From positions 1 through 43,140 of IMG/VR virus record IMGVR_UViG_3300044301_005092: a DNA stretch of 43,140 nucleotides; one strand, 5' to 3'. Each line of letters starts with the position of its first letter. Position 1 is the stretch's first letter. The notes under the pieces were generated by a model that did not search any database, was not told where the DNA came from, and worked only from the letters and a program-made list of their open reading frames with translations. Both the position numbers and the translations under genes were made by a program. Of this stretch, positions 2,398 to 30,928 are shown piece by piece. The DNA comes from a virus.

Positions 2398-3203
2398 TAC
2401 ACACCTCTTTCTGTATCGTACGCTATAATGTGATCTCTACCTGTCATATTGTAACCATGTTCTGCTACCATTTCAAATACTTTTGGATACATTTCAGTTA
2501 ATGTTTCTCTAGTATCTCCTGCGGGCATAACATATGTTTTATCTTTAGGAACACCCAATTCAATTCTATATGCTTCAATTTCTTTTAAATTTTCATCTGT
2601 TCCATCCCATACAGGTTTAAAATGGTAATCGTCATGATATTCAATCATTTTTTTAATTGCATCTGTATTTTGTCTTTTCCTATTATGAATTTTAATCATT
2701 CTTTCGTCAACAACTTTTCCAGCAGGTGTAATAGCCCCAATAACAGGCACGGAATTGCTAAACTTAGGACTAATAGAAAGAAGCCCAATGGGAAAATCAG
2801 TTTCAATATAATGAGATCCTTCAGTCTCAATAGTAATAAGTATATTTCTTTCATTTGCAAATATTGTTAATTCATTAACTAAAGCAGGATGCATTGTTGG
2901 TGATCCACCTGTTAACATCATTTCTTTTACATGGGGATTTTCATCATAGATTTTTATAATATCATTAAATGAAAATGTTCCTTTTTCTGGGTGGATACTT
3001 GTATACCAAGAATCACACCAACCTCCTTCTCCAAAGAAACATCTATGTGTACATCCTGTTGTTCTAACAGCAATAGTAGGTCTTCCAAATCTACTGCCTT
3101 CAGATTGTACACATCTATAAACTTCTAATATAGGGAGAATTTTATCGTAGTCTTCTATTCTTTTACGCATATTGTTAATTTTTTTAAGTGGTTTTACAGT
3201 CAC
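2397..3203 (-). CDS. queE: 7-carboxy-7-deazaguanine synthase (QueE, radical SAM)
   Basis: A 268-aa radical SAM enzyme of the QueE type, which converts 6-carboxytetrahydropterin to 7-carboxy-7-deazaguanine with SAM, a 4Fe-4S cluster and magnesium. Visible are Q-S-E-G (33-36), the cysteine cluster C51-x3-C55-x7-C63 followed by D-S-W-Y, and T-G-G-S-P (SAM-binding GGE/GGS region). The spacing before the third Cys differs from the classical CxxxCxxC by a few inserted residues; QueE enzymes are known to vary here. M12 is an alternative start. It overlaps the following 42-aa gene by one base, within the operon that also holds queD, queC, folE and the dpdA-like gene. Confidence 0.88.
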   Translation of the reverse strand: MTVKPLKKINNMRKRIEDYDKILPILEVYRCVQSEGSRFGRPTIAVRTTGCTHRCFFGEGGWCDSWYTSIHPEKGTFSFNDIIKIYDENPHVKEMMLTGGSPTMHPALVNELTIFANERNILITIETEGSHYIETDFPIGLLSISPKFSNSVPVIGAITPAGKVVDERMIKIHNRKRQNTDAIKKMIEYHDDYHFKPVWDGTDENLKEIEAYRIELGVPKDKTYVMPAGDTRETLTEMYPKVFEMVAEHGYNMTGRDHIIAYDTERGV

Positions 3204-3215
3204 TATTTATTATAA

Positions 3216-3449
3216 CTATTTACCTTTTTTGTTTTTACCTCTTTTTTTCTTTTTTATTTCTCTTTGAACTTCAATTTGAGGGTTATCTATTTTATATTGA
3301 ATTCTAGCTCTTTGTTTTTTAGCCCCTATACCTTTACCTAAACGCTTATCTAAATCAGCTATTTGTTGTTCAGGAGTTAGTTGAGCCCAATATTCATTTC
3401 GTGCTATTGCTTCTGTATTTTTATTTTTTGTGTATTTTATATCACTCAT
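3216..3449 (-). CDS. Small basic protein of unknown function
   Basis: A 77-aa protein, strongly basic at its C-terminus (a run of Lys/Arg with Gly and Asn from residue 63 on). The middle (residues 18-45) looks helical and contains L-T-P-E-Q-Q-I. The tail suggests nucleic acid contact but no family is recognised. It sits between queE (12-nt gap) and a gene flanked by an 18-nt inverted repeat. Confidence 0.6.
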   Translation of the reverse strand: MSDIKYTKNKNTEAIARNEYWAQLTPEQQIADLDKRLGKGIGAKKQRARIQYKIDNPQIEVQREIKKKKRGKNKKGK

Positions 3450-3452
3450 ATA

Positions 3453-3470
3453 ATAATTTTTAGACCATTA
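3453..3470. repeat. Left arm of an 18-nt inverted repeat
   Basis: ATAATTTTTAGACCATTA is an exact reverse complement of 3801-3818. The two arms flank the 103-aa gene at 3477-3788 and lie just outside its stop and start. Confidence 0.85.
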
Positions 3471-3476
3471 AGTAAA

Positions 3477-3788
3477 TTATTTATTCTTTTTTATTAATTT
3501 AACTTGTTCATGTATAGCTCTAAATACTTCTTCTTCTTTTTTATTCATTTTACGATGAACTCTATCAAACCTGGTATCTAGATCTCTTAGAACTTTATCT
3601 AATTCAACTTCTTGTTCTCTAACTTGGTGATTTATTTCAGTGTGAATACCACCTATTTCTAAAGATAAAGAACCTACTTTACCTCTCAAATTACGAACAG
3701 TAGAAACTAAATACACAAGTGTACTTAAAGTCCCTACGGATAATATCGTAATCAGCACTGTTTTTAAAATTTCATTTTCCATAAGCAT
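3477..3788 (-). CDS. Membrane-anchored coiled-coil protein of unknown function
   Basis: A 103-aa protein with one N-terminal membrane segment (about residues 8-28, I-L-K-T-V-L-I-T-I-L) followed by a long charged helix with heptad character (about 35-100). This layout fits an inner-membrane anchor with a cytoplasmic coiled coil. M3 is an alternative start. The gene is bracketed by a perfect 18-nt inverted repeat (3453-3470 and 3801-3818), unlike the tight gene junctions on either side, which could mean it is a separately acquired unit or that its transcript ends are regulated. No family recognised. Confidence 0.65.
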   Translation of the reverse strand: MLMENEILKTVLITILSVGTLSTLVYLVSTVRNLRGKVGSLSLEIGGIHTEINHQVREQEVELDKVLRDLDTRFDRVHRKMNKKEEEVFRAIHEQVKLIKKNK

Positions 3789-3800
3789 TTTTTTTATACC

Positions 3801-3818
3801 TAATGGTCTAAAAATTAT
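3801..3818. repeat. Right arm of an 18-nt inverted repeat
   Basis: TAATGGTCTAAAAATTAT, the exact reverse complement of 3453-3470. It lies upstream of the start of the 103-aa gene and downstream of the queD stop. Confidence 0.85.
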
Positions 3819-3829
3819 ATTTTTTCATA

Positions 3830-4321
3830 TTATATTTCTGTATAAATTGATGAATTTCTGTCAGCTTCCCAACATTCTACTTTTACTACCTTTACTCTAC
3901 CGCCACCTGTCAATGCTAGTCGTTTATTGAAATGATCAAAAACTAATTTTGCACAAGCTTCAGCACCCATTTTATCCATTACTCTTAAATGACATATACC
4001 TAATTCTTCCAACATTTGAAATGATTCTAATTGAGGATCATCTTTTTCAATTAATGTGGTATGATCCCACATATAATTCATCCAATCTTTTAATCCATTT
4101 CCTGGTGTTGGTTCTGCATCTGTTGATTTAAATCCACCATAGTCCATTATCCAATTCATTTCATCCAATTGTTTTTCTTCTAATGGTTCTACTGATTCAA
4201 ACCACACTTTAAATTTTAATGCATACCCATGCAATAATTCACAATGAGAATGAGCTGCTTTCCATTGTCTTAATGCTACTGAGTAATTATCAAATAATTT
4301 TGTTGATTGATATTTTGCCAT
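3830..4321 (-). CDS. queD: 6-carboxy-tetrahydropterin synthase-like protein (QueD)
   Basis: A 163-aa member of the 6-pyruvoyl/6-carboxy-tetrahydropterin synthase family, second step of 7-deazaguanine synthesis (dihydroneopterin triphosphate to 6-carboxytetrahydropterin). Seen: A-A-H24-S-H-C27-E-L-L-H31-G-Y33, the M-D-Y-G-G-F-K strand, W-D-H-T-T-L (catalytic Asp-His) and V-E-C-W-E-A with the substrate-binding Glu. The usual H-G-H zinc motif reads H-G-Y here, so one of the three zinc His ligands is replaced by Tyr33; H26 could substitute. It is 6 nt upstream of the thioredoxin junction in the operon. Family membership is firm; activity of this variant is inferred. Confidence 0.87.
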   Translation of the reverse strand: MAKYQSTKLFDNYSVALRQWKAAHSHCELLHGYALKFKVWFESVEPLEEKQLDEMNWIMDYGGFKSTDAEPTPGNGLKDWMNYMWDHTTLIEKDDPQLESFQMLEELGICHLRVMDKMGAEACAKLVFDHFNKRLALTGGGRVKVVKVECWEADRNSSIYTEI

Positions 4322-4327
4322 ATTTAT

Positions 4328-4582
4328 TTATCCTATAAAATTTGTAACAGTATTCATATCGTGTTTACCCACTAACCTATTTAACTCATTTCCATTGTTA
4401 TCTGTTAATACTATAGTAGGAACACTTTTAACATTATATTGCCCAACAAAAGATGTATCATAATCAATATTTATTTTTCTAACAGGGATACCTTTTTGTG
4501 CTGCTACCGAATCAACAATAGGTCCAAATAATTTACAAGGTTCGCACCAGGGTGCACTAAAATATAAAATTCCTTTATTCAT
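4328..4582 (-). CDS. Thioredoxin
   Basis: An 84-aa, slightly short cytoplasmic thioredoxin. The active site is A-P-W-C13-E-P-C16, and the cis-proline loop is S-V-P-T-I-V-L. It would reduce disulfides, and the class Ia ribonucleotide reductase elsewhere in the window (C-terminal CxxC in NrdA) is the obvious client. It sits 6 nt upstream of queD. No signal peptide, in contrast to the second thioredoxin-like protein at 20095-20421, which has one and lacks the cysteines. Confidence 0.9.
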   Translation of the reverse strand: MNKGILYFSAPWCEPCKLFGPIVDSVAAQKGIPVRKINIDYDTSFVGQYNVKSVPTIVLTDNNGNELNRLVGKHDMNTVTNFIG

Positions 4583-4604
4583 AATAATTTTTTTTTTAAT
4601 TTAT

Positions 4605-4847
4605 TTATACTAATTCTTCAATTATACCTACAAGTTCACTTAAAACTAATACAATAGTAGCAGAAATAAGATCTATAGGTATTAAAACATAACCAGCAAT
4701 TCTAATTGTTGATTTTATAAAACTAATAATTCGATGCCATTTTTGATTTGGGGCACCTTCCATTTCACTTTTTACTTCTTCTAGTCTTGCTAGAATTTTA
4801 TTTTGATCTCCAAATCCTTTGGCTTCCATAATTTCTTTACTTGACAT
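4605..4847 (-). CDS. Small membrane-associated protein of unknown function
   Basis: An 80-aa protein: charged helical N-terminal half (residues 1-40), then a hydrophobic stretch of about 30 residues (I-A-G-Y-V-L-I-P-I-D-L-I-S-A-T) that could be one membrane segment or an amphipathic hairpin. Its start lies 2 nt past the queC stop, so it is probably co-translated. No family recognised. Confidence 0.6.
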   Translation of the reverse strand: MSSKEIMEAKGFGDQNKILARLEEVKSEMEGAPNQKWHRIISFIKSTIRIAGYVLIPIDLISATIVLVLSELVGIIEELV

Positions 4848-4849
4848 AT

Positions 4850-5695
4850 TTAATAATTTTTTAATAATTTTTCTACATGATTTTTAGCTACATCCCAACC
4901 ATCTATGTATGTTACAGGATCTTTTCTTCCTAATTTTAAAAATGCTTCTATTCTTTCTACAGAAGATGCTGACTTATAATCAGAGTGTCCTTCTAAATTA
5001 GGTTTATATGATGTGTTAGTTCTTTTATAAACTTCATTAAAATCTACACCTAACTGCTTACAACAATGTTCACCATCTAATAATATATCAAATTTATCTC
5101 CATTTAAATAAGGAGTATAATATGTTACTTTATCAGCATCCCAGTTACCCTCTAAAAATGCTTTATAATCTGCATCTCTAAATTCTTGTCTACAATCAGG
5201 ATAAATTGCATGATCCCCTGCATGAATACCCATTGCAATTTTTACTTCACAATTCATTTCATTTGCAATTGATAAAGCTATAGATTGGACAATAGATGAA
5301 AACATTTTATTTCTATTAGGTACAACAGTATCTTTCATATTTTCTTCTTCATAATGACCTTCAGGAACTTCATCACCTCCATCAACTAAATTAGAACTAA
5401 TCATATCTTTTAATCCTATCATTGTTATACATTGGCGTCTAATTCTACCTTTATATCCATTTTCATTCAAGTATTCTACTAATTCAGCTGCTCTTAATAA
5501 TTCAACATTATGTTTTTGACCATAATCAAAACTTATAGCTGTTACTTGATAACCTTCATTTAATAAACGCAATAATACAGTAGAACTATCCATACCACCT
5601 GATAGGGATATTACTGCTTGTTTATGACCTGATAATCTTGGGTGTTCATTTACATCGTGATTATTTGCTTCTTCAAAATTAAATTTTAATTGCAT
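4850..5695 (-). CDS. queC: QueC-like PP-loop ATPase (preQ0 synthase family) lacking zinc cysteines
   Basis: A 281-aa member of the QueC family, which uses ATP and ammonia to turn 7-carboxy-7-deazaguanine into 7-amido-7-deazaguanine and then preQ0. The PP-loop S-G-G-M-D-S is at residues 32-37, followed by I-S-F-D-Y-G-Q-K-H and, downstream, V-P-N-R-N and M-G-I-H-A-G-D. In ordinary QueC the C-terminal part has four zinc Cys (T-x-S-C-Y ... CGxCxxC). Here the matching stretch (residues 226-252, beginning T-N-T-S-Y-K-P-N) contains no Cys, although the flanking V-E-R-I-E-A-F and K-D-P-V-T-Y are kept. No glutamine amidotransferase domain is fused. The end product may therefore be preQ0 or an intermediate such as the amide. 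Confidence 0.88.
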   Translation of the reverse strand: MQLKFNFEEANNHDVNEHPRLSGHKQAVISLSGGMDSSTVLLRLLNEGYQVTAISFDYGQKHNVELLRAAELVEYLNENGYKGRIRRQCITMIGLKDMISSNLVDGGDEVPEGHYEEENMKDTVVPNRNKMFSSIVQSIALSIANEMNCEVKIAMGIHAGDHAIYPDCRQEFRDADYKAFLEGNWDADKVTYYTPYLNGDKFDILLDGEHCCKQLGVDFNEVYKRTNTSYKPNLEGHSDYKSASSVERIEAFLKLGRKDPVTYIDGWDVAKNHVEKLLKNY

Positions 5696-12829: not shown

Positions 12830-13885
12830 CTACCAATATCTTATACTTCCTCCATCAGGAGCTGGTTTTTCTTTTTTGTTTTGTGACTTCCATGCTAAAT
12901 TATCTATAGGTTTTTTTTCAATTATTGATTTTTTATTATCAACCCCTTCATTTAAATCTTTTTGAATTTCTTTTTTAGTTATTAAAGGTTTTTTTTCTTT
13001 TTTATTATTTTTTAAAGTTTTTTTTTCCTCTTTATTTTTAATTTTTCTTGTAATTTTTAACAGTTCTTGTTTAGGAGATTTATTTAATTGGGCAAAAGCA
13101 AAATTAGCAGCTACTACTAAAGCAATTGCTAAAGGGTCAAATACAAATATAATAGTTATTAATAACCAATTAATTATTTTATCCATAGGAGTTCCAGTTA
13201 ACCCTGCTAAATATTTTAATGGTCCTAATTCTCCTGATATATTTGACGAATTTGATACTTCTACTATTTCAGTTTCATAATCAAATAATTGTGAATTTAA
13301 CTCATCTAATTTAGTATTAACTACTGTTTGTCTTTCAATAGTTTGATCTAATTGAGATGTTAAAGCTTTACGTGTTGATGAAGATTGAGTTGTAATTACA
13401 TTACCTAAAGTGTCAGTATATTGTATTACATTGTTGCTTAAACCATTTCTTAAACCTGTTATGGATTCGTTAATACTAGTTTTTTCTTCATTATATACTA
13501 TTATTTGTTCTTTTATATTATCTCTTTTAGTTACAATTAATGCAATTTGGGCATCTATATTACCGGCTAATGCTGCTGTTTCTTGGTAAGCTGCACTTAA
13601 AAATCCATAAATCCCCATTGAAGTTATAAGAATTAATACTATACAAGCCGTAGTAAGATATATTTTTAACAAAAAGGGTAGTGTTTTTCTATATTGATAT
13701 AATAAAGATGCAATTACTAATTTAGCAATTTCTAAAGAAGCTGCCATTATAATAACTGCAAAAGTAGCTCCTGCAAATAATTTACTAAGACCACTAACGG
13801 AATAGAATGCTGCTGACCCTGATACAGCTAAAGCCGAAAGAGCTATTATAAAGGGAAATACTCTTTCTTGTATTTTTTTCCACAT
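12830..13885 (-). CDS. Four-helix membrane protein with periplasmic coiled coil
   Basis: A 351-aa integral membrane protein. Hydrophobic segments at about 9-31, 36-62, 70-96 and 236-268 predict four transmembrane helices. Between the third and fourth is a 130-residue charged, heptad-like region (about 105-230), and the last 80 residues are a Lys-rich cytoplasmic tail ending P-D-G-G-S-I-R-Y-W. From memory, proteins of this build occur in many marine T4-type phages without known function. It follows the lytic enzyme gene by 17 nt, so a role in lysis timing (spanin or antiholin-like) or in superinfection control is possible, but is inference. Confidence 0.72.
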   Translation of the reverse strand: MWKKIQERVFPFIIALSALAVSGSAAFYSVSGLSKLFAGATFAVIIMAASLEIAKLVIASLLYQYRKTLPFLLKIYLTTACIVLILITSMGIYGFLSAAYQETAALAGNIDAQIALIVTKRDNIKEQIIVYNEEKTSINESITGLRNGLSNNVIQYTDTLGNVITTQSSSTRKALTSQLDQTIERQTVVNTKLDELNSQLFDYETEIVEVSNSSNISGELGPLKYLAGLTGTPMDKIINWLLITIIFVFDPLAIALVVAANFAFAQLNKSPKQELLKITRKIKNKEEKKTLKNNKKEKKPLITKKEIQKDLNEGVDNKKSIIEKKPIDNLAWKSQNKKEKPAPDGGSIRYW

Positions 13886-13902: not shown

Positions 13903-14505
13903 TTAAACAATATCCTTAGACTCTAAAAGAGTATAAGTAAAATTATTCCCCCATAAATCTCTAGCTTGACGACAAATTTTCATAAATACAGCCCAATCAT
14001 CATTAGCTGCTATTACTTGACATCCTGCAGACCATTTATCTACTTGTGAAGATTTTTTACCTTCCCATTTAGTAGCTCTATGAATGTTAATTCCAAATAA
14101 TCCTTCTTGTACTGATTCTTCTAATAAATCATATTTGTCATCACGATTATTATCTCTATAAACTTTTACAGGTCTTTGTTGTCCTAATGCTTCATATTTA
14201 CCAGCATGTAATCTTATTTTATGTGAACGTCTATATTGACCTGGTTTAAGTATTGCTACTCCTTCTTTTCTCATTATATTTTCAACCCAATGAGTTCCTG
14301 GGTCTGTTGTACAGTCAAAGCAATGAAAACACCACTCACCATCTACTTTGTAAGATAGTGTAAGCTTGTCATCAAAAGCATTTGTTACTTTATCAGCAGT
14401 CTCACAATTTCGGACACCTACGATATTTACATCATAGTCCCCACCATCAAACCAAACATAATTTTTGGCTTTTACTGCTTCTTCAATTTGTTCTCTAGTA
14501 TACAT
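13903..14505 (-). CDS. L,D-transpeptidase-like protein, candidate lytic enzyme
   Basis: A 200-aa protein whose C-terminal half shows G-I-N-I-H142 ... W-S-A-G-C162-Q-V, the His and Cys spacing of the YkuD/L,D-transpeptidase catalytic motif (H ... S-x-G-C). Upstream are T-D-P-G-T-H-W and I-L-K-P-G-Q-Y-R, which fit a beta-rich fold cutting or exchanging peptidoglycan stem peptides. It has no signal peptide, so export would depend on a holin, and a two-helix holin-like gene lies directly upstream. This makes it the best endolysin candidate in the window. A transpeptidase that alters the wall without lysing it is the alternative. Confidence 0.68.
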   Translation of the reverse strand: MYTREQIEEAVKAKNYVWFDGGDYDVNIVGVRNCETADKVTNAFDDKLTLSYKVDGEWCFHCFDCTTDPGTHWVENIMRKEGVAILKPGQYRRSHKIRLHAGKYEALGQQRPVKVYRDNNRDDKYDLLEESVQEGLFGINIHRATKWEGKKSSQVDKWSAGCQVIAANDDWAVFMKICRQARDLWGNNFTYTLLESKDIV

Positions 14506-14564: not shown

Positions 14565-14783
14565 TTATTTTCTATTTGCAAATTTTTCTAAACCAGCAAT
14601 ACCGAAACAACCCAGTACTACCATTACAAATGAGTTATATATACTATCATTTATTACTAAATCTCTACCTGCCCATCCTGTTATTACATCAGCTAGCATT
14701 ACTATTACCATTATTAAAAAAGCACAAAATCCTATTATACTTTTTTCATTATACTTATTATCATCTTTAAATATATCCCACAT
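14565..14783 (-). CDS. Holin-like small membrane protein
   Basis: A 72-aa protein with two hydrophobic helices (about 15-33 and 47-66), a charged N-terminus (M-W-D-I-F-K-D-D-N-K) and a short basic C-terminus (F-A-N-R-K). This is the usual build of class II-type holins, which form lesions in the inner membrane at lysis. It directly precedes the L,D-transpeptidase-like gene and follows the 1572-aa secreted protein gene by 2 nt. Holins are too diverse for a sequence match alone; the call rests on topology and position. Confidence 0.65.
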   Translation of the reverse strand: MWDIFKDDNKYNEKSIIGFCAFLIMVIVMLADVITGWAGRDLVINDSIYNSFVMVVLGCFGIAGLEKFANRK

Positions 14784-14785
14784 TT

Positions 14786-17700
14786 TTATTGTTTTAAAAT
14801 TGTTGTATTTATTATTTCATCTTCAAAACTTATAATCATATTATACATACCCGAAGGGTAATTAGACATATTAATTTGTTTAGCGTCCTCCTGTGATATT
14901 ACTAACTTACCCATCATATCATATATTTTAACATTTACTTCTTTTATACTTTGAATATTTAAAATATCTATAATAGGATTTGGATAAACTAATAATTCAT
15001 TTGAATTTTCAATTAAATCAATAGGCCATCCTAAATCACAATAATTATATAATTCAACACAATATGAATCCCATTCTCCTTCACAACATTCAGTATCAAT
15101 TGATATTACCCAAGCAAAGCATTCATTAGGTAGCCAATATGGTTCTCCTGGTCCTCCACTACAACCAGCATCATAAACACAACTTCCATCATCTGTATTT
15201 GCTGTTAAACTATAATTGTAAGCACTTACATCTGTACATCCAGTTAATACATCTATACATCCTCCTGAGTCTGTATTTGCTAGTGGATCATAATTTATTG
15301 CTTCTTCATCCATACATCCTATTACAACGTCTATACATGAGAAATCTTCAACATTTGCATCTGCATTATAGTTAAATGCTGCTGGATCAGTACAACCTTC
15401 AACTATCTCAATACATGAATCATTATCAACATTTGCTTCTTCATCATAATTTAATGCTGTAGGATCTGTGCAACCATAAACTATTAATATACATGAACCA
15501 TCATCTGTATTTGCTAATTCATTGTAATTAACTGCTAAATTATTTGTACAACCATAAATAAATGGCTCACATGTTCCATTATCTGTATTAGCATCAGAAT
15601 CATAGTTCCACGCAGTTGAGTCAGTACAACCATAGATAAATGGTATACACGAACCATTTTCAACATTTGCATTTTCGTTATAATTTAATGCCGTGCTATC
15701 AGTACATCCATACACAAATGGTTCACAAGTTCCATTATCTGTATTAGCTAAAGGGTTATAATTAAATTGTGTATCATCTGTACACCCATAAATAAAAGCA
15801 ATACAAGAACCATTATCTGTATTTGCATTTTCATTGTAGTTAAATGCAGCTGCATCTGTACAACCATAAATAAGTGGTATACATGAACCATCATCTGTAT
15901 TAGCAGTTGAATCATAATTGAATGCTTCTTCATCCGTACAACCATATAAATAAGGTACGCAACCATTATTAGTATTTGCTAACGCATTATAATTAAGAGC
16001 TGTATCATCCATACAACCAATTACAACTGGGATGCAACTTTCATCATCTGTGTTTGCATTTAGATCATAATTAAATGCTTCAGGATCTGTACAACCATAA
16101 ATGTAAGGAATGCAACCTGAGTTAGTGTTTGCTGTCTCATCATAATTTAATGCAGTATCATCTGTACATCCAATAACCACAGCTTCACATGTGCCATCAT
16201 CAGTGTTAGCATTAGAATTATAATTAAATGCTGTTTCATCAGTACAACCTAATATTGGATAAACACATCCAGAATTTGTATTGGCTTCTTCATTATAATT
16301 AAGTGCTGTATCGTCTGTACAACCAATAACTACTTCTTCACATGTCCCGTCATCTACATTTGCATTAATATTAAAATTAAAAGCATCTGGATTAGTGCAT
16401 CCTAATACTGGATAAATACAACCTGAGTTAGTATTTGCGGTTTCGTCGTAATTGTTTGCGGTATCATCTGTACAACCTATCACTACTACCTCACATGTAT
16501 TATCTTCTGTATTAGCTTGTGGATTGTAGTTAAAAGCTTCTGGGTCTGTACATCCATATACAAATGAAATGCAACCAACATTAGTATTTGCTAGTTCATC
16601 ATAATTAAATGCTTCTGGGTCAGTACATCCATATACATATTCTATACAACTACCATCATCTGTGTTAGCATTAATATCAAAATTGAATTGAGTTGGGTCC
16701 ATACAACCATATACAAATGGTTCACATGGATTATTTTCATCTGCTGTATTTGCTTCAGCATTGTAATTAAATGCTGTCTCATCTAAACAACCATAAATAA
16801 ATGGTTCACATAAATTATTATTTGTGTTAACATCTACACCATTTATTCCTGTTAGTGGATTTCCTACTCCATCATTATCATAATCATTATAAGTATATGA
16901 ATTAGGATTCAAACAACCATATACAAAAGGATAACAAGAACCATCATCTGTATTTGCATCTGAATTATAGTTAAATTGATTTGTTTGTGTACATCCTTCT
17001 ATTACTGGTATACATGAATCATCATCTACATTTGCTTCTATATCATAATTAAAGGCATCATCTTCCGTACAACCATAAACTACTTCAATACAAGAATCAT
17101 TGTTTGAATTGGCAGATGAATCATAATTAAATGCTAATTCGTCTGTACATCCATAAATAAATGGTTCACATATTAATCCATCAAAATCAAAATTAGCTAT
17201 TGGATCATAATTAAATGCAGTTCCATCTGTACATCCTAATATATAAGGTACACAAGGATCAGTAAGATCTCCAATTGCTGTTCCATTAACTGTTGCAGTA
17301 TAATCAAAATTAAATGCATCTTCATCCATACAACCAAATACTGCAAATTCATCACATGAACCATCATCATAATCTGCTTCTACTCCATATTCATCAATAT
17401 AAGTATAATATTCTGTATAAGCTTCATTATTACAACCTGGATTATAATAACATGAACCATCCGTTGTATTTGCTGTTGCTATATAATTGATAGCTTCTTC
17501 ATCTAAACAACCATAAACTTTTGGTATACAACTATTACCACATTTAGCTTCTGCTTTGTAAATAAACCCATATTGGTTATAAGATAATATTGGATTTGTA
17601 TATGGATTTGTTCCTCCATTTGTTATTACTAATCCTACTGGATTTGTTATTTCAAACTTACATTGTTCTGCTGTTTGTTGTGAATTTCCAAATGAATAAA

Positions 17701-19504
17701 AATAAGTATTTATCATTTCAGATGTATTCAAATCTAAAACTGTATCTAATTGTAATTGATCTGGTTCTAATGTAAAGGGTCCCCACCAATTATCACCTTG
17801 TGTTACTACTAGAAATGATCCAGCCCAACCATTATCTCCCCAATCTTGTAATGTTAATGTGTTATTACAATTTGGAGTATCTAACATTGATGTTGCTTCT
17901 TCATCATAATTAAAGGCATCTATATCTGTACAACCATAAACATTTGGAGTTAAACATGAACCATCATCTTCAGTTGCGTAAACATCATATTCTACATAAT
18001 CTGAATCTGTACAACCTTGTATTATATCATCAATACATTCTTGAACAAAAATATTTTCTTGAAATATAGGACCAAAATTACCTCCACCTGTTGAAAGTGT
18101 ATCACATGGAGTATATACTATCCAAGATCCATCTATACCTCCCCATATTGAACCAGCTAAACCATCACCATAAGTATCTGTTATGCTAAATAAAACTGAA
18201 GTTCCATTATCGATACAAACTTGTTTTTCAACAACACCATAATCAGGAATATCACTGTATGTTCCTGGTTCTACTAAATCTAATACAGTTCCACCTCCAT
18301 CATATATTGCCCAACCTGTTTCTCCTTGATATTGATCTAATGTTATTTCTACTGTTACTACTGTCTTTCCTGGAGAACAAGATATATCAGTTCCATCACA
18401 AGAACCATCGTCTATAGTAGCAGCTGGGTTATACATGTTTGATGTTGGATTTGTACAACCTGGTATATTAATACAAGATCCATCATTTACTCCTGCTTCA
18501 GGATTATAATTTAATGCATTTTCATCTGTACAACCATAAATAAATGTACATGGATCCATGTACCAATATTCACCTACTACTGCATTAACATTTAATCCTG
18601 GTGAAAATGTTCCTAAATTTCCATCTGCTTCTGCTTCTGTATAGCATACATAAATTAATACTGCTGGTGCATTACAGTTACCTTGAACTTCTGCAACAAA
18701 ATCTACATAAAAAGTATTTTCACCTATGTATAATTTATTTCCAACTTCAAATATATCTTGATTGCCGTTAAAGTAAAAATCGGGATCTACCCCGAAATAA
18801 TTTTGTCCCCATACTTCAGTATTACAACTACCACCTGGAAAAATTAATCCTGATGGGAAAACTGCTGCTTCAGGGTCATAATTAGAAGCTAATTCATTTG
18901 TACATCCTTCTAAAAACTCACAAGAACCATCATCAAAAAAGGCATTTTCATCAAAATTAATTGCCATTTCATCTGTACATCCATTTGATGGAGGAGCGCA
19001 AGGTGCTATTGTTAATGTTTCTACTAATTCTGTGGCATATGAATCCATCCAACCTATTGTGTCTGATTCTATAATTTCATCATATGTGTATTCCCCAAAA
19101 GGTCCTTCATGATAAAATAAATCTTCACATGTATTATATATTTCAACCCACCCATCTTGCCATAAACCATCTCCCCATGTATCATATATAAAATAATAAT
19201 ATTCTCCTGAGTTTAATTCTATAAGTTCTTCATGTAAAGTAAGTCCATCTTCATATGGTCCCCCAAATGCTATAATAGAATCATTTTCATTTAATAATTC
19301 CCAACTAGTTTCTTCAGGCCATTCATCTGTAAATACTACTATATTAATCCAAGAATCATATAATGATATTGTATCAGTTGTTAATGTATCTATTAATTCT
19401 TCCCCATAATCTGGTGGTGGAGGAGGGGGAGGAGGATTAACAATTGTATCTTGTGTAAAAACCAATAATGGTAAAAGCAAGAATGTTAAAAGTATGTTTT
19501 TCAT
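14786..19504 (-). CDS. Giant secreted Cys-repeat protein with T9SS C-terminal sorting domain
   Basis: A 1572-aa exported protein. N-terminus: signal peptide (M-K-N-I-L-L-T-F-L-L) then a poly-Pro stretch. Next come beta-sandwich segments of the kind found in Bacteroidetes surface proteins (three stretches with E-T-S-W-E-L or E-T-G-W-A-I and D-T-W/Y-G-D-G-L). The bulk is about 35 copies of a roughly 26-residue repeat, consensus G-C-T-D-x-x-A-x-N-Y-x-x-x-A-N-x-D-D-G-S-C, with paired Cys and acidic loops like calcium-binding thrombospondin-3 repeats. The last 72 residues begin L-L-V-Y-P-N-P and contain V-K-I-Y-D-M-M-G-K, the type A sorting domain of the type IX secretion system (TIGR04183-type). 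The host would export it across both membranes and anchor or release it. Its start overlaps the lipoprotein gene stop (ATGA). An adhesin or cell-surface decoy is plausible; function unproven. Confidence 0.88.
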   Translation of the reverse strand: MKNILLTFLLLPLLVFTQDTIVNPPPPPPPPDYGEELIDTLTTDTISLYDSWINIVVFTDEWPEETSWELLNENDSIIAFGGPYEDGLTLHEELIELNSGEYYYFIYDTWGDGLWQDGWVEIYNTCEDLFYHEGPFGEYTYDEIIESDTIGWMDSYATELVETLTIAPCAPPSNGCTDEMAINFDENAFFDDGSCEFLEGCTNELASNYDPEAAVFPSGLIFPGGSCNTEVWGQNYFGVDPDFYFNGNQDIFEVGNKLYIGENTFYVDFVAEVQGNCNAPAVLIYVCYTEAEADGNLGTFSPGLNVNAVVGEYWYMDPCTFIYGCTDENALNYNPEAGVNDGSCINIPGCTNPTSNMYNPAATIDDGSCDGTDISCSPGKTVVTVEITLDQYQGETGWAIYDGGGTVLDLVEPGTYSDIPDYGVVEKQVCIDNGTSVLFSITDTYGDGLAGSIWGGIDGSWIVYTPCDTLSTGGGNFGPIFQENIFVQECIDDIIQGCTDSDYVEYDVYATEDDGSCLTPNVYGCTDIDAFNYDEEATSMLDTPNCNNTLTLQDWGDNGWAGSFLVVTQGDNWWGPFTLEPDQLQLDTVLDLNTSEMINTYFYSFGNSQQTAEQCKFEITNPVGLVITNGGTNPYTNPILSYNQYGFIYKAEAKCGNSCIPKVYGCLDEEAINYIATANTTDGSCYYNPGCNNEAYTEYYTYIDEYGVEADYDDGSCDEFAVFGCMDEDAFNFDYTATVNGTAIGDLTDPCVPYILGCTDGTAFNYDPIANFDFDGLICEPFIYGCTDELAFNYDSSANSNNDSCIEVVYGCTEDDAFNYDIEANVDDDSCIPVIEGCTQTNQFNYNSDANTDDGSCYPFVYGCLNPNSYTYNDYDNDGVGNPLTGINGVDVNTNNNLCEPFIYGCLDETAFNYNAEANTADENNPCEPFVYGCMDPTQFNFDINANTDDGSCIEYVYGCTDPEAFNYDELANTNVGCISFVYGCTDPEAFNYNPQANTEDNTCEVVVIGCTDDTANNYDETANTNSGCIYPVLGCTNPDAFNFNINANVDDGTCEEVVIGCTDDTALNYNEEANTNSGCVYPILGCTDETAFNYNSNANTDDGTCEAVVIGCTDDTALNYDETANTNSGCIPYIYGCTDPEAFNYDLNANTDDESCIPVVIGCMDDTALNYNALANTNNGCVPYLYGCTDEEAFNYDSTANTDDGSCIPLIYGCTDAAAFNYNENANTDNGSCIAFIYGCTDDTQFNYNPLANTDNGTCEPFVYGCTDSTALNYNENANVENGSCIPFIYGCTDSTAWNYDSDANTDNGTCEPFIYGCTNNLAVNYNELANTDDGSCILIVYGCTDPTALNYDEEANVDNDSCIEIVEGCTDPAAFNYNADANVEDFSCIDVVIGCMDEEAINYDPLANTDSGGCIDVLTGCTDVSAYNYSLTANTDDGSCVYDAGCSGGPGEPYWLPNECFAWVISIDTECCEGEWDSYCVELYNYCDLGWPIDLIENSNELLVYPNPIIDILNIQSIKEVNVKIYDMMGKLVISQEDAKQINMSNYPSGMYNMIISFEDEIINTTILKQ
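15175..17516 (-). repeat. Tandem coding repeat array (about 78-bp units)
   Basis: About 29 near-contiguous units encoding G-C-T-D..A-x-N-Y...A-N repeats. Most units are 26 codons; a subset is 25 codons and ends A-N-T-N-S-G-C, lacking one Ser. Adjacent copies vary at synonymous positions, so the array is not a very recent duplication. Less regular copies continue to about 19000. Confidence 0.85.
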
Positions 19505-20091
19505 CTTTTTCTATTTTTAGGTCTATTTACTTGTTTATTATTTGATCTATTTTTATTAGTATTCCTAATATTATTAGACTTATTATTAATTTTATTAACA
19601 TTTGAGTTATTTAAATTAAATGTTCTATCATAATTTATCTTGTTAATATTATACTTAACATTATTTTGTTTATTATTTCTAGTTGAATTATGTGATTTCC
19701 AATCTCTAGGAAAAACAAATGACTTATCTTTATCATTTCTTACTTTAACTGTTGGGGTAAATTTTCCATGATTAATTTTACAATCAGGTCCTGTATTATG
19801 GAATTTAGGTCCTCTATGACCATATACATAATGTCCTGGTTTACAGTCTATAATAATGTGAGTATGTATGTGATAATGATAAGGAGGAATAAGTTGGTAA
19901 TAATACCACCATGGGTAAAAGTGAGGTATTCCATAATAATAATAAAATCCAGTATGATATCCCCAATAAACATCTATTCCATTATAATAAACTTCTGTCG
20001 AATGTGGGTGATCTTCATAAATAGGATCGTAAGCATATTGTGTTAGGGTACAACTACTTAATAATATTAATATAACTAAAATTTTTTTCAT
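19501..20091 (-). CDS. His/Tyr-rich predicted lipoprotein
   Basis: A 196-aa protein with a lipoprotein signal: M-K-K-I-L-V-I-L-I-L-L-S-S-C14, the Cys being the likely lipidation site. Residues 20-85 are extremely rich in Tyr and His (Y-W-G-Y-H-T-G-F-Y-Y-Y-Y, P-P-Y-H-Y-H-I-H-T-H), which could bind metal. A middle part has C-K-P-G-H-Y-V-Y-G-H-R-G-P and the C-terminal 60 residues are Asn/Lys-rich low complexity. It is co-translated with the T9SS protein (ATGA overlap). Probably an outer-membrane lipoprotein made during infection; no family recognised. Confidence 0.7.
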   Translation of the reverse strand: MKKILVILILLSSCTLTQYAYDPIYEDHPHSTEVYYNGIDVYWGYHTGFYYYYGIPHFYPWWYYYQLIPPYHYHIHTHIIIDCKPGHYVYGHRGPKFHNTGPDCKINHGKFTPTVKVRNDKDKSFVFPRDWKSHNSTRNNKQNNVKYNINKINYDRTFNLNNSNVNKINNKSNNIRNTNKNRSNNKQVNRPKNRKR

Positions 20092-20094
20092 AAT

Positions 20095-20421
20095 TTAAAA
20101 TTGGTCCATTACTATTTCGTCTATAACTTCTTGTATTTCTTTTTTTGTTGCTTGCATACTAAATGAAATATCCGCTTCATATCTTTCTTCTTCTTCACCA
20201 TCAACTAGTACTAATATTGTAGGAACAACTGTTATTTTATGGTCTGTTGCAGCTTGAGAATCTGTTGCAATGTCAATATTTTTAATTTTACAATCAGTCA
20301 AATCACTTACCCATTTCACATCATTAGCAGCATTCCAATTTGCATTAAAATGAATTACTTGTATTTGTGAATATGTTATTCCTGATATCAATAATAATAT
20401 TAGTAATAATATTTTTTTCAT
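20095..20421 (-). CDS. Exported thioredoxin-like protein without the CxxC site
   Basis: A 108-aa protein with a signal peptide (M-K-K-I-L-L-L-I-L-L-L-I-S-G-I-T-Y-S). The mature part follows the thioredoxin fold: beta strand V-I-H-F-N-A-N-W, helix, beta strand I-K-N-I-D-I-A, and the cis-Pro loop V-V-P-T-I-L-V-L. The active site that would read W-C-x-x-C is W-N-A-A-N here, so redox chemistry is not expected; one Cys (D-C-K) remains. It may act as a binding or chaperone module in the periplasm. Lies 3 nt before the lipoprotein gene. Confidence 0.75.
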   Translation of the reverse strand: MKKILLLILLLISGITYSQIQVIHFNANWNAANDVKWVSDLTDCKIKNIDIATDSQAATDHKITVVPTILVLVDGEEEERYEADISFSMQATKKEIQEVIDEIVMDQF

Positions 20422-20426
20422 AATTT

Positions 20427-20717
20427 TTATTTTAATCGATCTATTTTTTCCTCAATACGTTTTAGATCTTCTTTAATCTCTTCAACATCATCTTGAGTAT
20501 TTTGTATAGTTAATCGAATGTTTTTATCTTTCATATCAAATTCCATCCGTGTTACATCTGGTGGTGGAATCTCTATTACTGGTAGTTCTTTAGCTTCTGC
20601 TATGTCTGCTTGAAGTGCAAACCACATCCCAACAACTGTTGTTATTGCTGCCCCTATTGCAACTAAGGTTTTTATACTTACTTTAAAACTTGTATCTTCG
20701 TTTAATTCTTTTGCCAT
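20427..20717 (-). CDS. Membrane-anchored coiled-coil protein
   Basis: A 96-aa protein with one transmembrane segment (about 15-35, V-A-I-G-A-A-I-T-T-V-V-G-M-W-F) after a charged N-terminus, a short Pro-rich linker (E-I-P-P-P-D-V) and a C-terminal heptad helix (about 60-96). Similar in build to the 103-aa protein at 3477-3788. Sits between the exported thioredoxin-like and barrel-like genes. Function unknown. Confidence 0.62.
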   Translation of the reverse strand: MAKELNEDTSFKVSIKTLVAIGAAITTVVGMWFALQADIAEAKELPVIEIPPPDVTRMEFDMKDKNIRLTIQNTQDDVEEIKEDLKRIEEKIDRLK

Positions 20718-20719
20718 TT

Positions 20720-21781
20720 TTAAAATATTTTATAATTGACACCAAAGCTAAAATTGTGCCATTCTCTATTCCAATACTTATTATATTTACCTTCTATAAA
20801 TATTCCCATATTTTTGTTAAACCAATATCCAAATATTAATCCACCTGAGTAGTCTACCCATTGACCACCATTAAATGTATCGTATGAATATTCATTATTA
20901 CTTAACCAATGTAATGGTAAAACATTACCCCAAGCATGTAGCCAATAATCTTTTTTATAACTGTAATAGTCAAATCCTACAATTATTGAATAATTCCATA
21001 CATTTGGTAATTTATTTTTTTCATTTATTACATAATCGTCTAACATTTGTGGTATAACAACTTCTTCCCACACTTCATTTGAGTTTGCAACTACATTACC
21101 ATTTGGATCTGTGTAGATTTCATTAAATGGATCTATTTGATATCCTTCTTGTAATGCTAAATATGTGTAATGTAAATTACCATTTTCTAATATCCATTCA
21201 TCTAAAGGGTTAAAACCATAAGGTTCAGATAATCTTTGAGCTGTTCCTATATTAAATGATAATTTTCTATTAATTTTTTGTCTATATCTTAATGATGCTT
21301 CAAAGTATTCTATATCAGCAAAACCATCTTTTAAAAATTCAGCTTTAGTCATCCATCTATCTGCTACATATCTTAGGAAATGGTGTTGATCAAAAAATGT
21401 TAATCCTTGTTGTCTTTTATATTCTCCTTGAAATAAAAATTCAAACCCAGAAACTTTACCTACTGTTGCAGCATCTGAAAATGAATTTTCTGTTCCTTTT
21501 TTAAATGCTTCTTTAGGTAAATAACCAAATCTAGCAATTTTTCTCACCCCAAATATTACTGAGTAATCAAATGGTGTTTCTATAATATTTTGATTTAATG
21601 TTCCTGTTGTTATAGAATAGATATCATCATCAGCTAAAGATGTACCTCCATTTACCCCACCATAAAATGTTGAAAATTTAGTGAATTTTTTAAATTCTGC
21701 TTTAAAATCGAATGATTTTTTTTCATTTTGACCAAACATAAAAAAAGGAATGATCAATAGCGAAACTAATAGTTTTTTCAT
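20720..21781 (-). CDS. Outer-membrane beta-barrel-like exported protein
   Basis: A 353-aa protein with a signal peptide (M-K-K-L-L-V-S-L-L-I-I-P-F-F-M-F-G-Q). The mature part is made of alternating aromatic/hydrophobic strands (for example W-V-D-Y-S-G-G-L-I-F-G-Y-W-F, W-H-N-F-S-F-G-V-N-Y-K-I-F) and ends in Phe after a strand, the usual mark of an outer-membrane barrel recognised by the BAM machinery. An outer-membrane protein made by a phage could alter receptor access or aid release. I cannot name a family. It belongs to a run of at least four exported proteins. Confidence 0.7.
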   Translation of the reverse strand: MKKLLVSLLIIPFFMFGQNEKKSFDFKAEFKKFTKFSTFYGGVNGGTSLADDDIYSITTGTLNQNIIETPFDYSVIFGVRKIARFGYLPKEAFKKGTENSFSDAATVGKVSGFEFLFQGEYKRQQGLTFFDQHHFLRYVADRWMTKAEFLKDGFADIEYFEASLRYRQKINRKLSFNIGTAQRLSEPYGFNPLDEWILENGNLHYTYLALQEGYQIDPFNEIYTDPNGNVVANSNEVWEEVVIPQMLDDYVINEKNKLPNVWNYSIIVGFDYYSYKKDYWLHAWGNVLPLHWLSNNEYSYDTFNGGQWVDYSGGLIFGYWFNKNMGIFIEGKYNKYWNREWHNFSFGVNYKIF

Positions 21782-28316: not shown

Positions 28317-29156
28317 TTAAAATGGTAAAGGATCAGCATCAGAAGTATTTGAATTTTTCTCATCAAATAAATCATCAAATTGCTCTGACTTTGATTTTTT
28401 AACATTTGTATCAAGTGAGTAATTACCAGATTTTGTATCTCCATCAAATGCTACAGCAGGTTCTTTAATAATATCACCTTCTTTTTCTTCATCTTCAGGA
28501 GTTAAAAATTCTTGTAATGCTTCTTTAACTTCATCAAAAGTATAACGTTTAAAAATTTTCATTGGATCAGGTTGATCTTCTAAAAATTTACTAACTTCAT
28601 CTTTATCTTTTGATATTGGAGAAGTTTTTAACGAAGGTCCAATTGAAGTTTTATTATAAGGAGTTCCTGTAGTTTCAGGTCCTACTGTTGTTAGCTTAAT
28701 ATCTCTACCTTGAGCAATATCAGTATAATCACCAATTTCTTCATCAGCAGCCATATTTAAAAATTCTTGATAAACTTCTTTACCAAATTGCCACAGCCTA
28801 ACACCTTCAGATTCTTCACCTCTTACTACAACAGGTGCAAAAATTCTAGTTTTAGCATCTAATTTTTTAGCTAATCTCCAATTTTCTTTATCATTACTTG
28901 TTCGTAATTTTTTACAAAATTCTTGAATTGGGTCTTTTTCTTTCCAATTTAAAGGAGAAGCCATAACTCTCTTACCTATACCATAATAAAACATCATTTC
29001 AGTAAAAGGAAAATCTTTATTATATTTGTTAGGTACTACTCTAACAACTTGTTTACCAACTGAGGGTTTCCAAAATAAATTTTTACCTTCACCTTTTTTG
29101 TAGTTTGATTGATTTTGAAGGGAGTTTAATTTGTTTTTGATTTTTTGTAAATCCAT
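28317..29156 (-). CDS. 32: Single-stranded DNA-binding protein (T4 gp32-like)
   Basis: A 279-aa SSB of the gp32 type. The N-terminal part has L-F-W-K-P-S-V-G-K-Q-V-V-R-V-V-P, the start of the OB-fold core; the C-terminal 60 residues are acidic and end D-A-D-P-L-P-F, the tail that binds partner proteins. The zinc cluster typical of T4 gp32 is not evident (only one Cys, C81, in E-F-C-K). Position beside uvsX matches T4-type modules. A promoter at 29191-29220 lies directly upstream. Confidence 0.88.
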   Translation of the reverse strand: MDLQKIKNKLNSLQNQSNYKKGEGKNLFWKPSVGKQVVRVVPNKYNKDFPFTEMMFYYGIGKRVMASPLNWKEKDPIQEFCKKLRTSNDKENWRLAKKLDAKTRIFAPVVVRGEESEGVRLWQFGKEVYQEFLNMAADEEIGDYTDIAQGRDIKLTTVGPETTGTPYNKTSIGPSLKTSPISKDKDEVSKFLEDQPDPMKIFKRYTFDEVKEALQEFLTPEDEEKEGDIIKEPAVAFDGDTKSGNYSLDTNVKKSKSEQFDDLFDEKNSNTSDADPLPF

Positions 29157-29190
29157 GTTTATAACTTTTTATTTAATTTATAACTCTATT

Positions 29191-29220
29191 AATGTAAAAA
29201 ATATTCTTAAGATAACCAAA
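29191..29220 (-). promoter_or_regulatory. Promoter-like site upstream of the SSB gene
   Basis: On the minus strand TTTG (29220-29217), 20 bp, TACATT (29196-29191). It has the same box spacing as the other promoters but lacks their TTTCG spacer end, so it may be read differently. The start of the gp32-like gene is 35 nt downstream. Confidence 0.6.
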
Positions 29221-29694
29221 CTAAAGTTCAATAATCTTATGAATTTTTGTTTTTAATTGTTTTAACTCATCATGTTGAGTTAATAGTATTGTATTTCTAT
29301 AATGCTCCCAAGTAATTGGAAATTTAGTATCAACTACTCCTCCATTTAACTTTTTTATTAATTCATTTAAAGCATTAATTGTATACAACGTATTTGTTTC
29401 TTTTTTTCTATGAACTAATATAGTACTATCTGGTAAATTATTTACATTACCTTGGTCTATATTATATGTACAAACATATTCGTCATTGCTTTTTATATGC
29501 AAAACAAATATTTTATTATACATTATATTATATCTGCTAGTTATAGAATTTAAAATTGTTTCTAATTCATCTAATGTAGTAAAAGTACAGAATAACTTGT
29601 TATTCAAATCTCCAAAGTTTTGGTTCGTAAAGTCAACGAAATCGTCTATACTATACATATTGTGGGTTTTATCTAAAATCGTAGGTGTTTCCAT
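29221..29694 (-). CDS. Hypothetical phage protein next to the polymerase
   Basis: A 157-aa soluble protein with no recognised family. It overlaps the 3' end of the polymerase gene by 26 nt, so translation is likely coupled. N-terminal residues 15-50 look helical; a central stretch (Y-T-I-N-A-L-N-E-L-I-K-K-L-N-G-G) and W-E-H-Y-R-N-T-I-L-L may be conserved in marine phages. A polymerase accessory factor is possible from position only. Confidence 0.65.
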   Translation of the reverse strand: METPTILDKTHNMYSIDDFVDFTNQNFGDLNNKLFCTFTTLDELETILNSITSRYNIMYNKIFVLHIKSNDEYVCTYNIDQGNVNNLPDSTILVHRKKETNTLYTINALNELIKKLNGGVVDTKFPITWEHYRNTILLTQHDELKQLKTKIHKIIEL

Positions 29695-30928
29695 AACTTA
29701 TTTTTATTTGTAATTTATACTGTTTAAATAATTCTTTTATTTTTATTAAAACTTCTTTTTCTTCTTTACACACATCGAATAAAAATGAATCATAAGTATA
29801 TAAAATTAATTTAGTTTTTTTATTTTTTAATAATCTAAATATGTCATACATTATACAAACATTAACTGATGTCTCCAAATTTTGTAGTAAATAATTTAAA
29901 AGTTTTTGGGGCTTCATATTATCTAATTTATCTTTTTCAAATCGATGATTTGAAATAGGACATTCTATAAAACCTTCATTTTGAAATTTATACCACATCT
30001 CATCAGTATATATTTGGACTCTTTTAAAAAACTCTAAGTCTTTATACTGTTTAAATATTCCTCCATATAATTGTTTAAATGTCAGTTCTTTTGCTTTTTG
30101 ATAATCCACTCCATACATGTCAGCAAAGGATTGATGAATATCTTTTTTATCCCACTTCCAATGAATGAGCTTACCCAAAAGAGTAGGATGATAAGCGCCA
30201 ATATCAAGCTCGCAAAGGATATCATTACGAGTGTTAAAACTTCTTCTAGAATTGTTGTCTTTGTTAAGTGCTGCATAATTTACTCCTTTAAATTTATTTG
30301 ATGGTCTTTTTGTGAGGGTTTTGAAGTTGTATTGTGTGTATGTGTAGTCGGAATCGATACTATGAAAATTCTGTTCGAATTGTGATCTATCAATTCGTAA
30401 TCCACTTCTCTCCACGGCGTTGAAAACCACCGAGCATTTGTTGTTGTAGAATTCGTTGATTGGCTCATTTATTTTTTCTTTTAAATTATTAAATATATTT
30501 TCACAATACTCATAATGTTTTACAATAGGGATTATTCTATTAATATCTTTTTTATTAGGATATCTCCTCATAAATATTTCATGAGTTTGTGTAAATTCTT
30601 GTATATACGGAGGTGAATTGAGTGTTATGTCAAAGAGATTTTTTAGTGGAAAATAATGTAAAAATTCTTTTTTATCTCTAACATATATGGTATTTATCTT
30701 TGATAATAACAATATAATACCGTCTATATTAATATTAGTTGTTTCACTATGGGAAATGGGTATTATAAATCCTTTAGTTGTTACTAACGGTCTAATGTAG
30801 ACAGCACACACATTATTTTGAACAGGATGTATTTTACTATTATAAGGAATTACTTCAACAAAAACTTCTTTATAATTAGCATTAGAAAACTGCTCAAATT
30901 GAACTTTATTTTCAACTAACCAAAACAT
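29669..30928 (-). CDS. Compact, divergent family A DNA polymerase
   Basis: A 419-aa protein with the three polymerase motifs of family A in order: motif A L-D242-I-G-A-Y-H-P, motif B K-A-K-E-L-T-F-K-Q-L-Y-G-G (278-290), L-L-N-Y-L-L-Q-N-L-E-T (343-353, the Q-helix), and motif C Y-T-Y-D380-S-F-L-F-D. R-S-G-L-R-I-D (174-180) is the pre-palm motif. It is far smaller than T7 polymerase or a Klenow fragment. The first 110 residues resemble an exonuclease-domain remnant: the D-x-E motif is not seen, so proofreading is doubtful. This is the only replicative polymerase visible. The promoter at 30942-30971 precedes it. Confidence 0.82.
   Translation of the reverse strand: MFWLVENKVQFEQFSNANYKEVFVEVIPYNSKIHPVQNNVCAVYIRPLVTTKGFIIPISHSETTNINIDGIILLLSKINTIYVRDKKEFLHYFPLKNLFDITLNSPPYIQEFTQTHEIFMRRYPNKKDINRIIPIVKHYEYCENIFNNLKEKINEPINEFYNNKCSVVFNAVERSGLRIDRSQFEQNFHSIDSDYTYTQYNFKTLTKRPSNKFKGVNYAALNKDNNSRRSFNTRNDILCELDIGAYHPTLLGKLIHWKWDKKDIHQSFADMYGVDYQKAKELTFKQLYGGIFKQYKDLEFFKRVQIYTDEMWYKFQNEGFIECPISNHRFEKDKLDNMKPQKLLNYLLQNLETSVNVCIMYDIFRLLKNKKTKLILYTYDSFLFDVCKEEKEVLIKIKELFKQYKLQIKISYGNTYDFR

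Follow-up and report, generated by a model that had tools for sequence, protein, structure and literature searches.

Why should a bacteriophage encode a large protein that appears to be addressed to a secretion system of its host? The question is raised by a gene at positions 14786-19504 of IMG/VR virus record IMGVR_UViG_3300044301_005092, whose full length of 43,140 nucleotides we analyzed and call here the window. The product of this gene, termed below the cargo, is rich in Cys-paired repeats and ends in a sorting domain of the type IX secretion system (T9SS). Beyond a preliminary description of the locus, made from its sequence, we found conserved partner genes, chiefly one for a modelled outer-membrane (OM) barrel, and a second type of C-terminal tail. 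The predicted cargo is a member of a conserved phage cassette (OMP, TM96, TRX and tailed cargo) and not a lone captured gene. The genes are real; the function that we infer for the cassette, with even chances in our estimation, is surface display through the host T9SS by means of genes that the phage owns.

The cargo gene and its parts are as follows (positions of the window):

14786..19504, minus strand: cargo gene, for a T9SS-tailed, Cys-rich GCTD-repeat protein of 1572 residues (open reading frame, family profiles).
19454..19504, minus strand: predicted signal peptide, residues 1-17, approximate (sequence and a crude rule).
15167..18982, minus strand: 35 GC[TLMNS] repeats, residues 175-1446 (motif count).
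15038..15139, minus strand: Cys module of 34 residues immediately N-terminal of the tail, with C/W/CC/W/C/Y/C invariant.
14789..14989, minus strand: type A T9SS C-terminal sorting domain, residues 1506-1572 (PF18962, TIGR04183).

The open reading frame (ORF) starts with ATG, and both a reading of its N-terminus and a crude hydrophobicity rule point to a Sec signal peptide. The protein has 88 Cys residues and 36 GC[TLMNS] motifs, the last of which (residue 1447) is atypical as a repeat, so that the count of about 35 in the preliminary description is correct. Three pairs of repeats, separated by three longer stretches, are followed by 29 copies almost in tandem, and the spacing is 25-26 residues in 26 of the 35. 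A strict 10-residue repeat motif occurs 34 times in the cargo, whereas 1000 shuffles gave it 0.005 times on average and once at most; the 48 other ORFs of the window all lack it. At the C-terminal end, Por_Secre_tail (PF18962) matches residues 1506-1562 with 43.3 bits (cut-off 27, E 4.7e-11) and TIGR04183 matches residues 1506-1572 of 1572, the extreme C-terminus, with 36.9 bits (cut-off 23); the type B tail model CHU_C scored 17.6 bits, under its cut-off of 27. The cargo matches only sorting-tail models in Pfam, neither a ligand nor a binding domain could be recognised in it, and a sequence search of PDB found no relative of the GCTD repeats. The length, signal peptide, repeats and type A tail described earlier are thus confirmed, and a tail that exceeds two curated cut-offs in phage surroundings supports the earlier view that the product of a phage gene is directed to the T9SS of the host. 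Judging by these features, export of the cargo is very probably T9SS-directed. As to the described co-translation with a lipoprotein, the cargo start and the stop of the upstream gene (19501-20091) share 4 nt, which makes translational coupling plausible.

Does this gene belong to a phage at all? The contig is an IMG/VR virus record, and the window has phage genes for RNR, DnaB helicase, an exonuclease, a UvsX-like recombinase, SSB, tape measure and baseplate hub, as well as an endolysin-like gene. The closest isolate by RNR is Flavobacterium phage vB_FspM_immuto (NC_055915; 71.6% identity over 100% of the protein). A chimera with host DNA, which the preliminary description had named as fatal to its claim, we judge to be unlikely, as is host contamination. 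Both flanks and both ends of the gene recur in loci L006 and L007, from two metagenome ids, at 99.5-100% protein identity on contigs that stop inside the gene, and the whole gene adjoins its cassette partners in L002 (86% identity) and L003 (81%). Among 296 Flavobacteriales genomes the barrel was detected in one, which also has the Cys module, on a phage-like contig; the search used a loose first pass with no more than 7 candidates scored per genome, and copies can be missed. The suggestion of a captured host gene therefore survives at best as an old event. Repeats made by the assembly are unlikely too: the best DNA identity of a copy to another copy is 0.56-0.77 (26 copies), and an array whose copies are at most 77% alike is not a simple assembly artefact. 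The phage of the window and its relatives probably infect Bacteroidota.

Three genes upstream of the cargo complete the cassette:

20720..21781, minus strand: OMP, a signal-peptide protein of 353 residues, modelled as an outer-membrane beta-barrel (AlphaFold2, Foldseek, VIA).
20427..20717, minus strand: TM96, 96 residues, with one N-terminal membrane span and then a coiled coil (by eye).
20095..20421, minus strand: TRX, a signal-peptide thioredoxin-like protein of 108 residues without CxxC.

How regularly do these genes travel together? An OMP alignment used to search viral contigs found at least 566 relatives, and in the best 80 loci, which were kept, a tailed cargo is present in 71, TRX in 62 and TM96 in 61. 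All 55 cargos with a visible N-terminus in these loci pass the crude signal-peptide rule. The Pfam tail exceeds its cut-off in 37/40 and 33/40 of the records; G021 stands in both sets, which gives 69 of 79 distinct records, fished with the barrel as bait and not with the tail. Of the ten records lacking the Pfam tail, three (L059, L069 and L085) have the second tail, six have the barrel gene less than 2 kb from the contig end, and the contig of L097 terminates within TM96. Record G021 itself (245,646 bases; L034 and L065) has two copies of barrel plus T9SS cargo, with tails about 119 kb apart, which represent either a true duplication or joined genomes.

In all we examined 164 viral loci (the window, L002-L011 and L023-L175, some of them on one contig). 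OMP was found in 157, TRX in 137, TM96 in 132 and the cargo Cys module in 148, and each of these 148 proteins is tailed. OMP and cargo are co-oriented in 143/143 loci showing both, with OMP-TM96-TRX-cargo (64), cargo-OMP-TM96-TRX (35) and TM96-TRX-cargo-OMP (21) as the main orders. Where the cargo is upstream (77 loci), OMP starts no more than 20 nt from the cargo stop in 51, and 40 overlap; where OMP is upstream (66 loci), the cargo starts as close to the OMP stop in none. The second partner, TRX, scored 20.8 bits with Pfam Thioredoxin, under the cut-off of 23.5, and CxxC is absent from the window protein and present in only 2 of the 137 homologues, so that we name it thioredoxin-like only. 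TM96 had no match at E<=0.1 among public phage records, and no defence-system match was obtained for the 7 proteins searched.

The barrel was characterized mainly by modelling. An AlphaFold2 model from 76 sequences (pLDDT 81, pTM 0.72) has about 12 long strands; an earlier model, built on 6 sequences, was of poor quality (pLDDT 52.6) and was set aside. Its neighbours among solved structures in Foldseek and VIA are mostly OM barrels, for example NanC, KdgM, OmpG, CymA and OMPLA, with VIA Z of 8.5-10.7 among the matches listed. FadL chains appear at Z 8.6-8.8 amid many unrelated barrels, and neither program named a close barrel relative. The best viral structure match, A0A516LKJ4, is an unnamed protein. 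OMP is modelled as an outer-membrane beta-barrel, and a fold in common with OM barrels says nothing on its function. No Pfam or NCBIfam family accounts for the sequence across the 76 members; scattered matches were to FtsH_ext (6/76, best E 0.0016), metallo-beta-lactamase (2/76, 2.9e-5) and YfaZ (2/76, 0.066). A search of 50,697 public phage records yielded nothing at E<=0.01. Mean column identity of the 76 sequences is 57%, and crude dN/dS is 0.23; our dN/dS values come from non-independent, partly saturated pairs and give weak support.

The tails of the 148 Cys-module proteins are of two types: 104 are type A by profile and 44 are of a shorter type, or 93 and 37 when distinct last 120 residues are counted. 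A PNP motif lies within the last 85 residues in 99/104 type A proteins, and a signature composed after reading the short-tail proteins is present in 44/44 of them. The crude signal-peptide rule was passed by 127 of the 128 family members with a visible N-terminus, the sole exception being a short start call. The tail profile omits L052, L070 and L166, whose tail coordinates are odd, and the Cys-module alignment A7 holds 36 proteins, leaving out near-duplicates and eleven proteins outside the strict pattern. A tail-like match in the middle of a 1424-residue protein of G007/G008 scored 13.6 bits, under the cut-off, and was not counted. Frames of about 200 residues with Por_Secre_tail over the cut-off were also seen in two uncultured phage records of 635-642 kb, LR745206 (near 298.4 kb, L258) and LR756502 (near 325.9 kb, L257).

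Is the shorter tail also a signal? Among 18 metagenome-assembled genomes (MAGs) or single-cell genomes, chosen as sources of GCTD loci, 13 contain 3-35 matching places per genome. In the MAG loci inspected, the match ends 0-2 residues before the stop in 13/13, and of these bacterial proteins seven start with a signal peptide by eye and six are fragments. One ending on many different proteins is the pattern of a sorting signal, and the short tail of some Flavobacteriales and of phage cargos is a candidate second sorting signal, a C-terminal tail type that family libraries would have missed. Short-tail loci include L240, L245, L185 and L194 and genomes G109-G125, with up to 35 places per MAG.

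The cassette is not the property of one phage group. T4-like Gp23 was matched in 7 of the 48 long cassette records, and the cassette is therefore not limited to Gp23 phages; all 7 Gp23 records have type A tails, 0/15 short-tail records have Gp23, and 26 of the 33 type A records lack it. Matches to phrog_2 (10/48) were not counted, as this family also matched 11 of 14 control genomes. Other PHROG families are matched by the terminase, portal and major head protein of the 58-kb cassette record G091, and by these gene matches the cassette is present in at least two kinds of phage with different capsid genes. On the bacterial side, L192 (NZWA01000061.1, the MAG contig that bears barrel and Cys module in the one positive genome of the 296) is syntenic with the window and 23/23 of its ORFs match viral-locus ORFs, as do 17/18 ORFs of the cassette-bearing L204 (JAAXIF010000025.1, from a Sphingobacteriales MAG outside the sample of 296 genomes), so that both look like phage contigs.

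Which partner provides the secretion machinery? Of 9 bacterial genomes with the short tail or with a binned cassette contig, 8 have SprA_N (PF14349), and the one without it, G112, is perhaps incomplete. The 18 phage records, possibly fragments, have none. As far as this profile can tell, the phage records tested supply the cargo but no translocon gene, and most bacterial genomes tested have it.

If these genes act together, we can ask: What would such a cassette do for the phage? According to PMC12618676 and PMC9143113, type A cargo passes through SprA and is then taken over by PorV. Host type B substrates, known or predicted to act as adhesins, are instead received and retained by an OM barrel, often the product of an adjacent gene. 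In the infected cell, Sec would carry the cargo into the periplasm, the host SprA translocon would pass it across the outer membrane, and a long Cys-rich repeat rod would be displayed on the cell surface. The phage barrel may, less certainly, hold or direct the cargo, as PorP/SprF do for host type B adhesins. It is so regularly paired with the cargo that it may be the cargo's anchor or shuttle, an assignment by analogy that we put forward tentatively. The coat and the new barrel would alter the envelope, and further virions would fail to adsorb; released virions meeting debris would likewise fail to adsorb, in the manner of T5 Llp. That an adsorption block is the main role of the cassette is conceivable, with chances somewhat below even. 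In its fullest and rather doubtful form, the proposal would make the cassette a self-contained T9SS display kit in which the phage's own barrel anchors or shuttles the cargo, a redox-dead TRX chaperone and TM96 assist its passage across the envelope, and the tail is swapped according to host lineage. Were this true, the phage would re-program the surface sorting of its host and not merely borrow it. If the cassette does coat infected cells, phage infection would be linked to the T9SS, a system of gliding, adhesion and polymer breakdown in Bacteroidota.

Several observations weigh against the surface-display proposal. In the window three genes separate the cargo from OMP, which lies upstream. 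Pfam and NCBIfam presumably both contain a PorP/SprF model, and it was listed for 0/76 OMPs at E<=1, so membership of OMP in this family was rejected; moreover, the barrels PorP/SprF serve type B tails, yet the cargo neighbouring OMP has a type A tail. The crude dN/dS of the tail, 0.52, is moderate. As for the short tail, its 36 members gave no meaningful Pfam match and a single NCBIfam type A match (1/36, E 0.27), the comparison with the type A profile was weak (E 0.0064, probability 5.9%), and 5 of the 18 MAG or single-cell genomes had no match to it. Finally, GCTD proteins without signal peptide exist in some cassette phages and in cyanophage S-CAM3, and the repeats are therefore not indicative of one role. 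Such proteins are encoded at L022:5806-7356 (S-CAM3 gp232), L011:1236-9896 and L008:93-4361; gp232 thus comes from a cyanobacterial phage, and the T9SS is described in PMC7468147 as exclusive to the Bacteroidetes superphylum. Eleven of the 164 loci, some on one contig, have the cassette together with a GCTD protein that lacks a signal peptide or starts outside the stretch; with the protein of L011, where the stretch read has no cassette, this makes twelve non-cargo proteins, 7 of them seen in part.

The neighbourhood of the cassette in the window is relevant to the alternatives and includes these genes:

19501..20091, minus strand: predicted lipoprotein, 196 residues, lipobox LLSSC by eye; homologue in L003, outside the core cassette.
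14565..14783, minus strand: two-span protein, 72 residues, holin-like by eye only; similar proteins in L002 and L005 (by eye).
13903..14505, minus strand: endolysin-like protein, 200 residues (phrog_33083 endolysin, E 2.5e-13; phrog_3000, unknown function, E 7.1e-34).
12830..13885, minus strand: membrane protein, 351 residues, of unknown function, retained close to the cassette in L192.

The description of this region as a lysis/envelope cluster holds in the window, where the cassette adjoins lysis genes, and similar genes are seen by eye in L192. It is perhaps not general: uncharacterized genes surround the cassette in G091, and neighbours in G091 and in L008/L010 resemble fibre genes when read by eye; the two that were compared with PHROG gave no match. 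These facts bear directly on a possible lytic function of the cargo, which might, for instance, load or weaken the outer membrane ahead of release. The holin-like and endolysin-like neighbours in the window suit it, and TM96 with the lipoprotein could resemble a spanin pair; but no endolysin was recognised beside the cassette in L008, L010 and G091, whose neighbours were compared with window ORFs or partly scanned against PHROG, and we hold a lytic role to be quite improbable. Still further from likely is a cargo that forms part of the virion, for example a fibre, and keeps the tail as a remnant. GCTD repeats do occur in structural proteins, since S-CAM3 gp232 is annotated as a virion structural protein and the 2886-residue protein of L011 matches a PHROG of virion structural proteins. 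The window cargo differs from the gp232 kind in its signal peptide, however, and a signal-peptide rule passed almost throughout the family, with a tail on every Cys-module protein, would be unexpected for cytoplasmic assembly. Both tail types are, in addition, found in bacterial genomes.

The two remaining alternatives keep the export of the cargo and change its purpose. The exported repeat protein could be an adhesin that attaches infected cells to particles or to other cells, giving access to new hosts or fixing the cell where it is until lysis, the barrel being its anchor. MAGs, mostly titled Flavobacteriales, encode large GCTD-repeat proteins, several with T9SS-like endings by eye; the type B substrates of Flavobacterium johnsoniae, often encoded beside an OM-barrel gene, are known or predicted adhesins (PMC12618676, PMC9143113); and immuto has, two genes past RNR, a signal-peptide C-type lectin and a T9SS-tailed cohesin protein. 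Against it, the GCTD protein has neither an identified ligand or binding domain nor a PDB relative by sequence; we regard the adhesin as a serious rival, if the less probable outcome. Alternatively, the barrel could be the active agent, in superinfection exclusion or altered permeability, and the cargo an accessory, or a decoy that shares the repeats of virion proteins and masks their ligand. The strong conservation of OMP agrees with this, as does the pairing of the cassette in eleven loci with an additional GCTD protein; the GCTD protein of L011, in a stretch without the cassette, has the match to virion structural proteins noted above. Against it, the tailed cargo is kept in most cassettes and seems not dispensable, GCTD repeats beyond the cargo are a minority, and 7 of the 12 proteins that have them are incomplete as read; we consider an active barrel with a secondary cargo unlikely.

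Two other observations concern the window only. Genes at 667-5695 for a GTP cyclohydrolase and for QueE-like and QueC-like proteins have counterparts in immuto, where a DpdA is annotated besides; they are possibly involved in 7-deazaguanine DNA modification. At 29001-30000 the GC content is 0.222 (0.263-0.337 elsewhere), adjoining ORFs 29221-29694 and 29669-30928.

How does the cassette compare with known systems? The preliminary description held that use of the T9SS by a phage would be new, and this does not stand, as it is reported in PMC7468147 and PMC6949934. Cryophage (Bellas et al. 2020, PMC7468147) has three T9SS-tailed cargo genes, for which superinfection exclusion was suggested. It is like the cassette in its phage-encoded type A sorting domains and predicted use of the host system; however, its cargos, an endoglucanase, a GH39 protein and a PA14 protein, differ from one variant to the next, and the accessible part of that paper mentions neither the set of barrel, thioredoxin and TM partners nor GCTD repeats. 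In crAss-like phages (2019, PMC6949934, accessible part) ORFs with T9SS sorting domains are likewise present, close to BACON ORFs, one of which bears the domain itself, but the domains are different, the genes lie beside head genes and no role was proposed.

A comparable architecture is seen in the host systems SprB-SprF of F. johnsoniae and PG1035-PorP-PorE of Porphyromonas gingivalis, in which a T9SS cargo is carried or anchored by an OM barrel, often from adjacent genes, and SprB is highly repetitive as is the phage cargo (PMC12618676 and PMC9143113). Unlike the cassette, these are host genes with type B tails; the PorP-like barrels are described in PMC9143113 as 14-stranded and of the FadL family, whereas the OMP model has about 12 long strands and the OMP sequences list no PorP/SprF model. 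In the proposed role the cassette resembles T5 Llp, a phage protein in the host envelope that stops adsorption to infected cells and debris. Llp is, in contrast, a small periplasmic lipoprotein acting on FhuA, with no T9SS, barrel or repeat rod (PMC9586334, in the part available), and is thus a precedent for the purpose of the cassette and not for its means.

Among isolates, immuto gp015 is comparable to the cargo: its T9SS tail also scores above the cut-off and it is encoded soon after the RNR genes, with cohesin in place of GCTD repeats. Its genes gp013-gp015 (L247:10527-13422, NC_055915) are annotated merely as lectin and cohesin, and a text search of PMC7077304 found no mention of T9SS, lectin, cohesin or immuto. 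No homologue of the barrel was found in immuto by sequence search, nor by profile in gp013-gp020, gp022 and gp023; gp017 looked CsgG-like by eye, but Pfam found nothing and this is not claimed. Being isolated, immuto offers through gp015 a route to bench tests of phage T9SS cargo. In listings of the literature outside subscription journals and preprints we found no report of two tails, or of a conserved phage gene set that joins an OM barrel and a thioredoxin-like protein to a T9SS cargo. Phage-encoded T9SS cargo is thus already published, and the conserved cassette with its two tails is unreported in the literature searched. What PMC7468147 called in 2020 a 'unique occurrence' recurs here as a conserved gene set across many contigs of uncultured phages.

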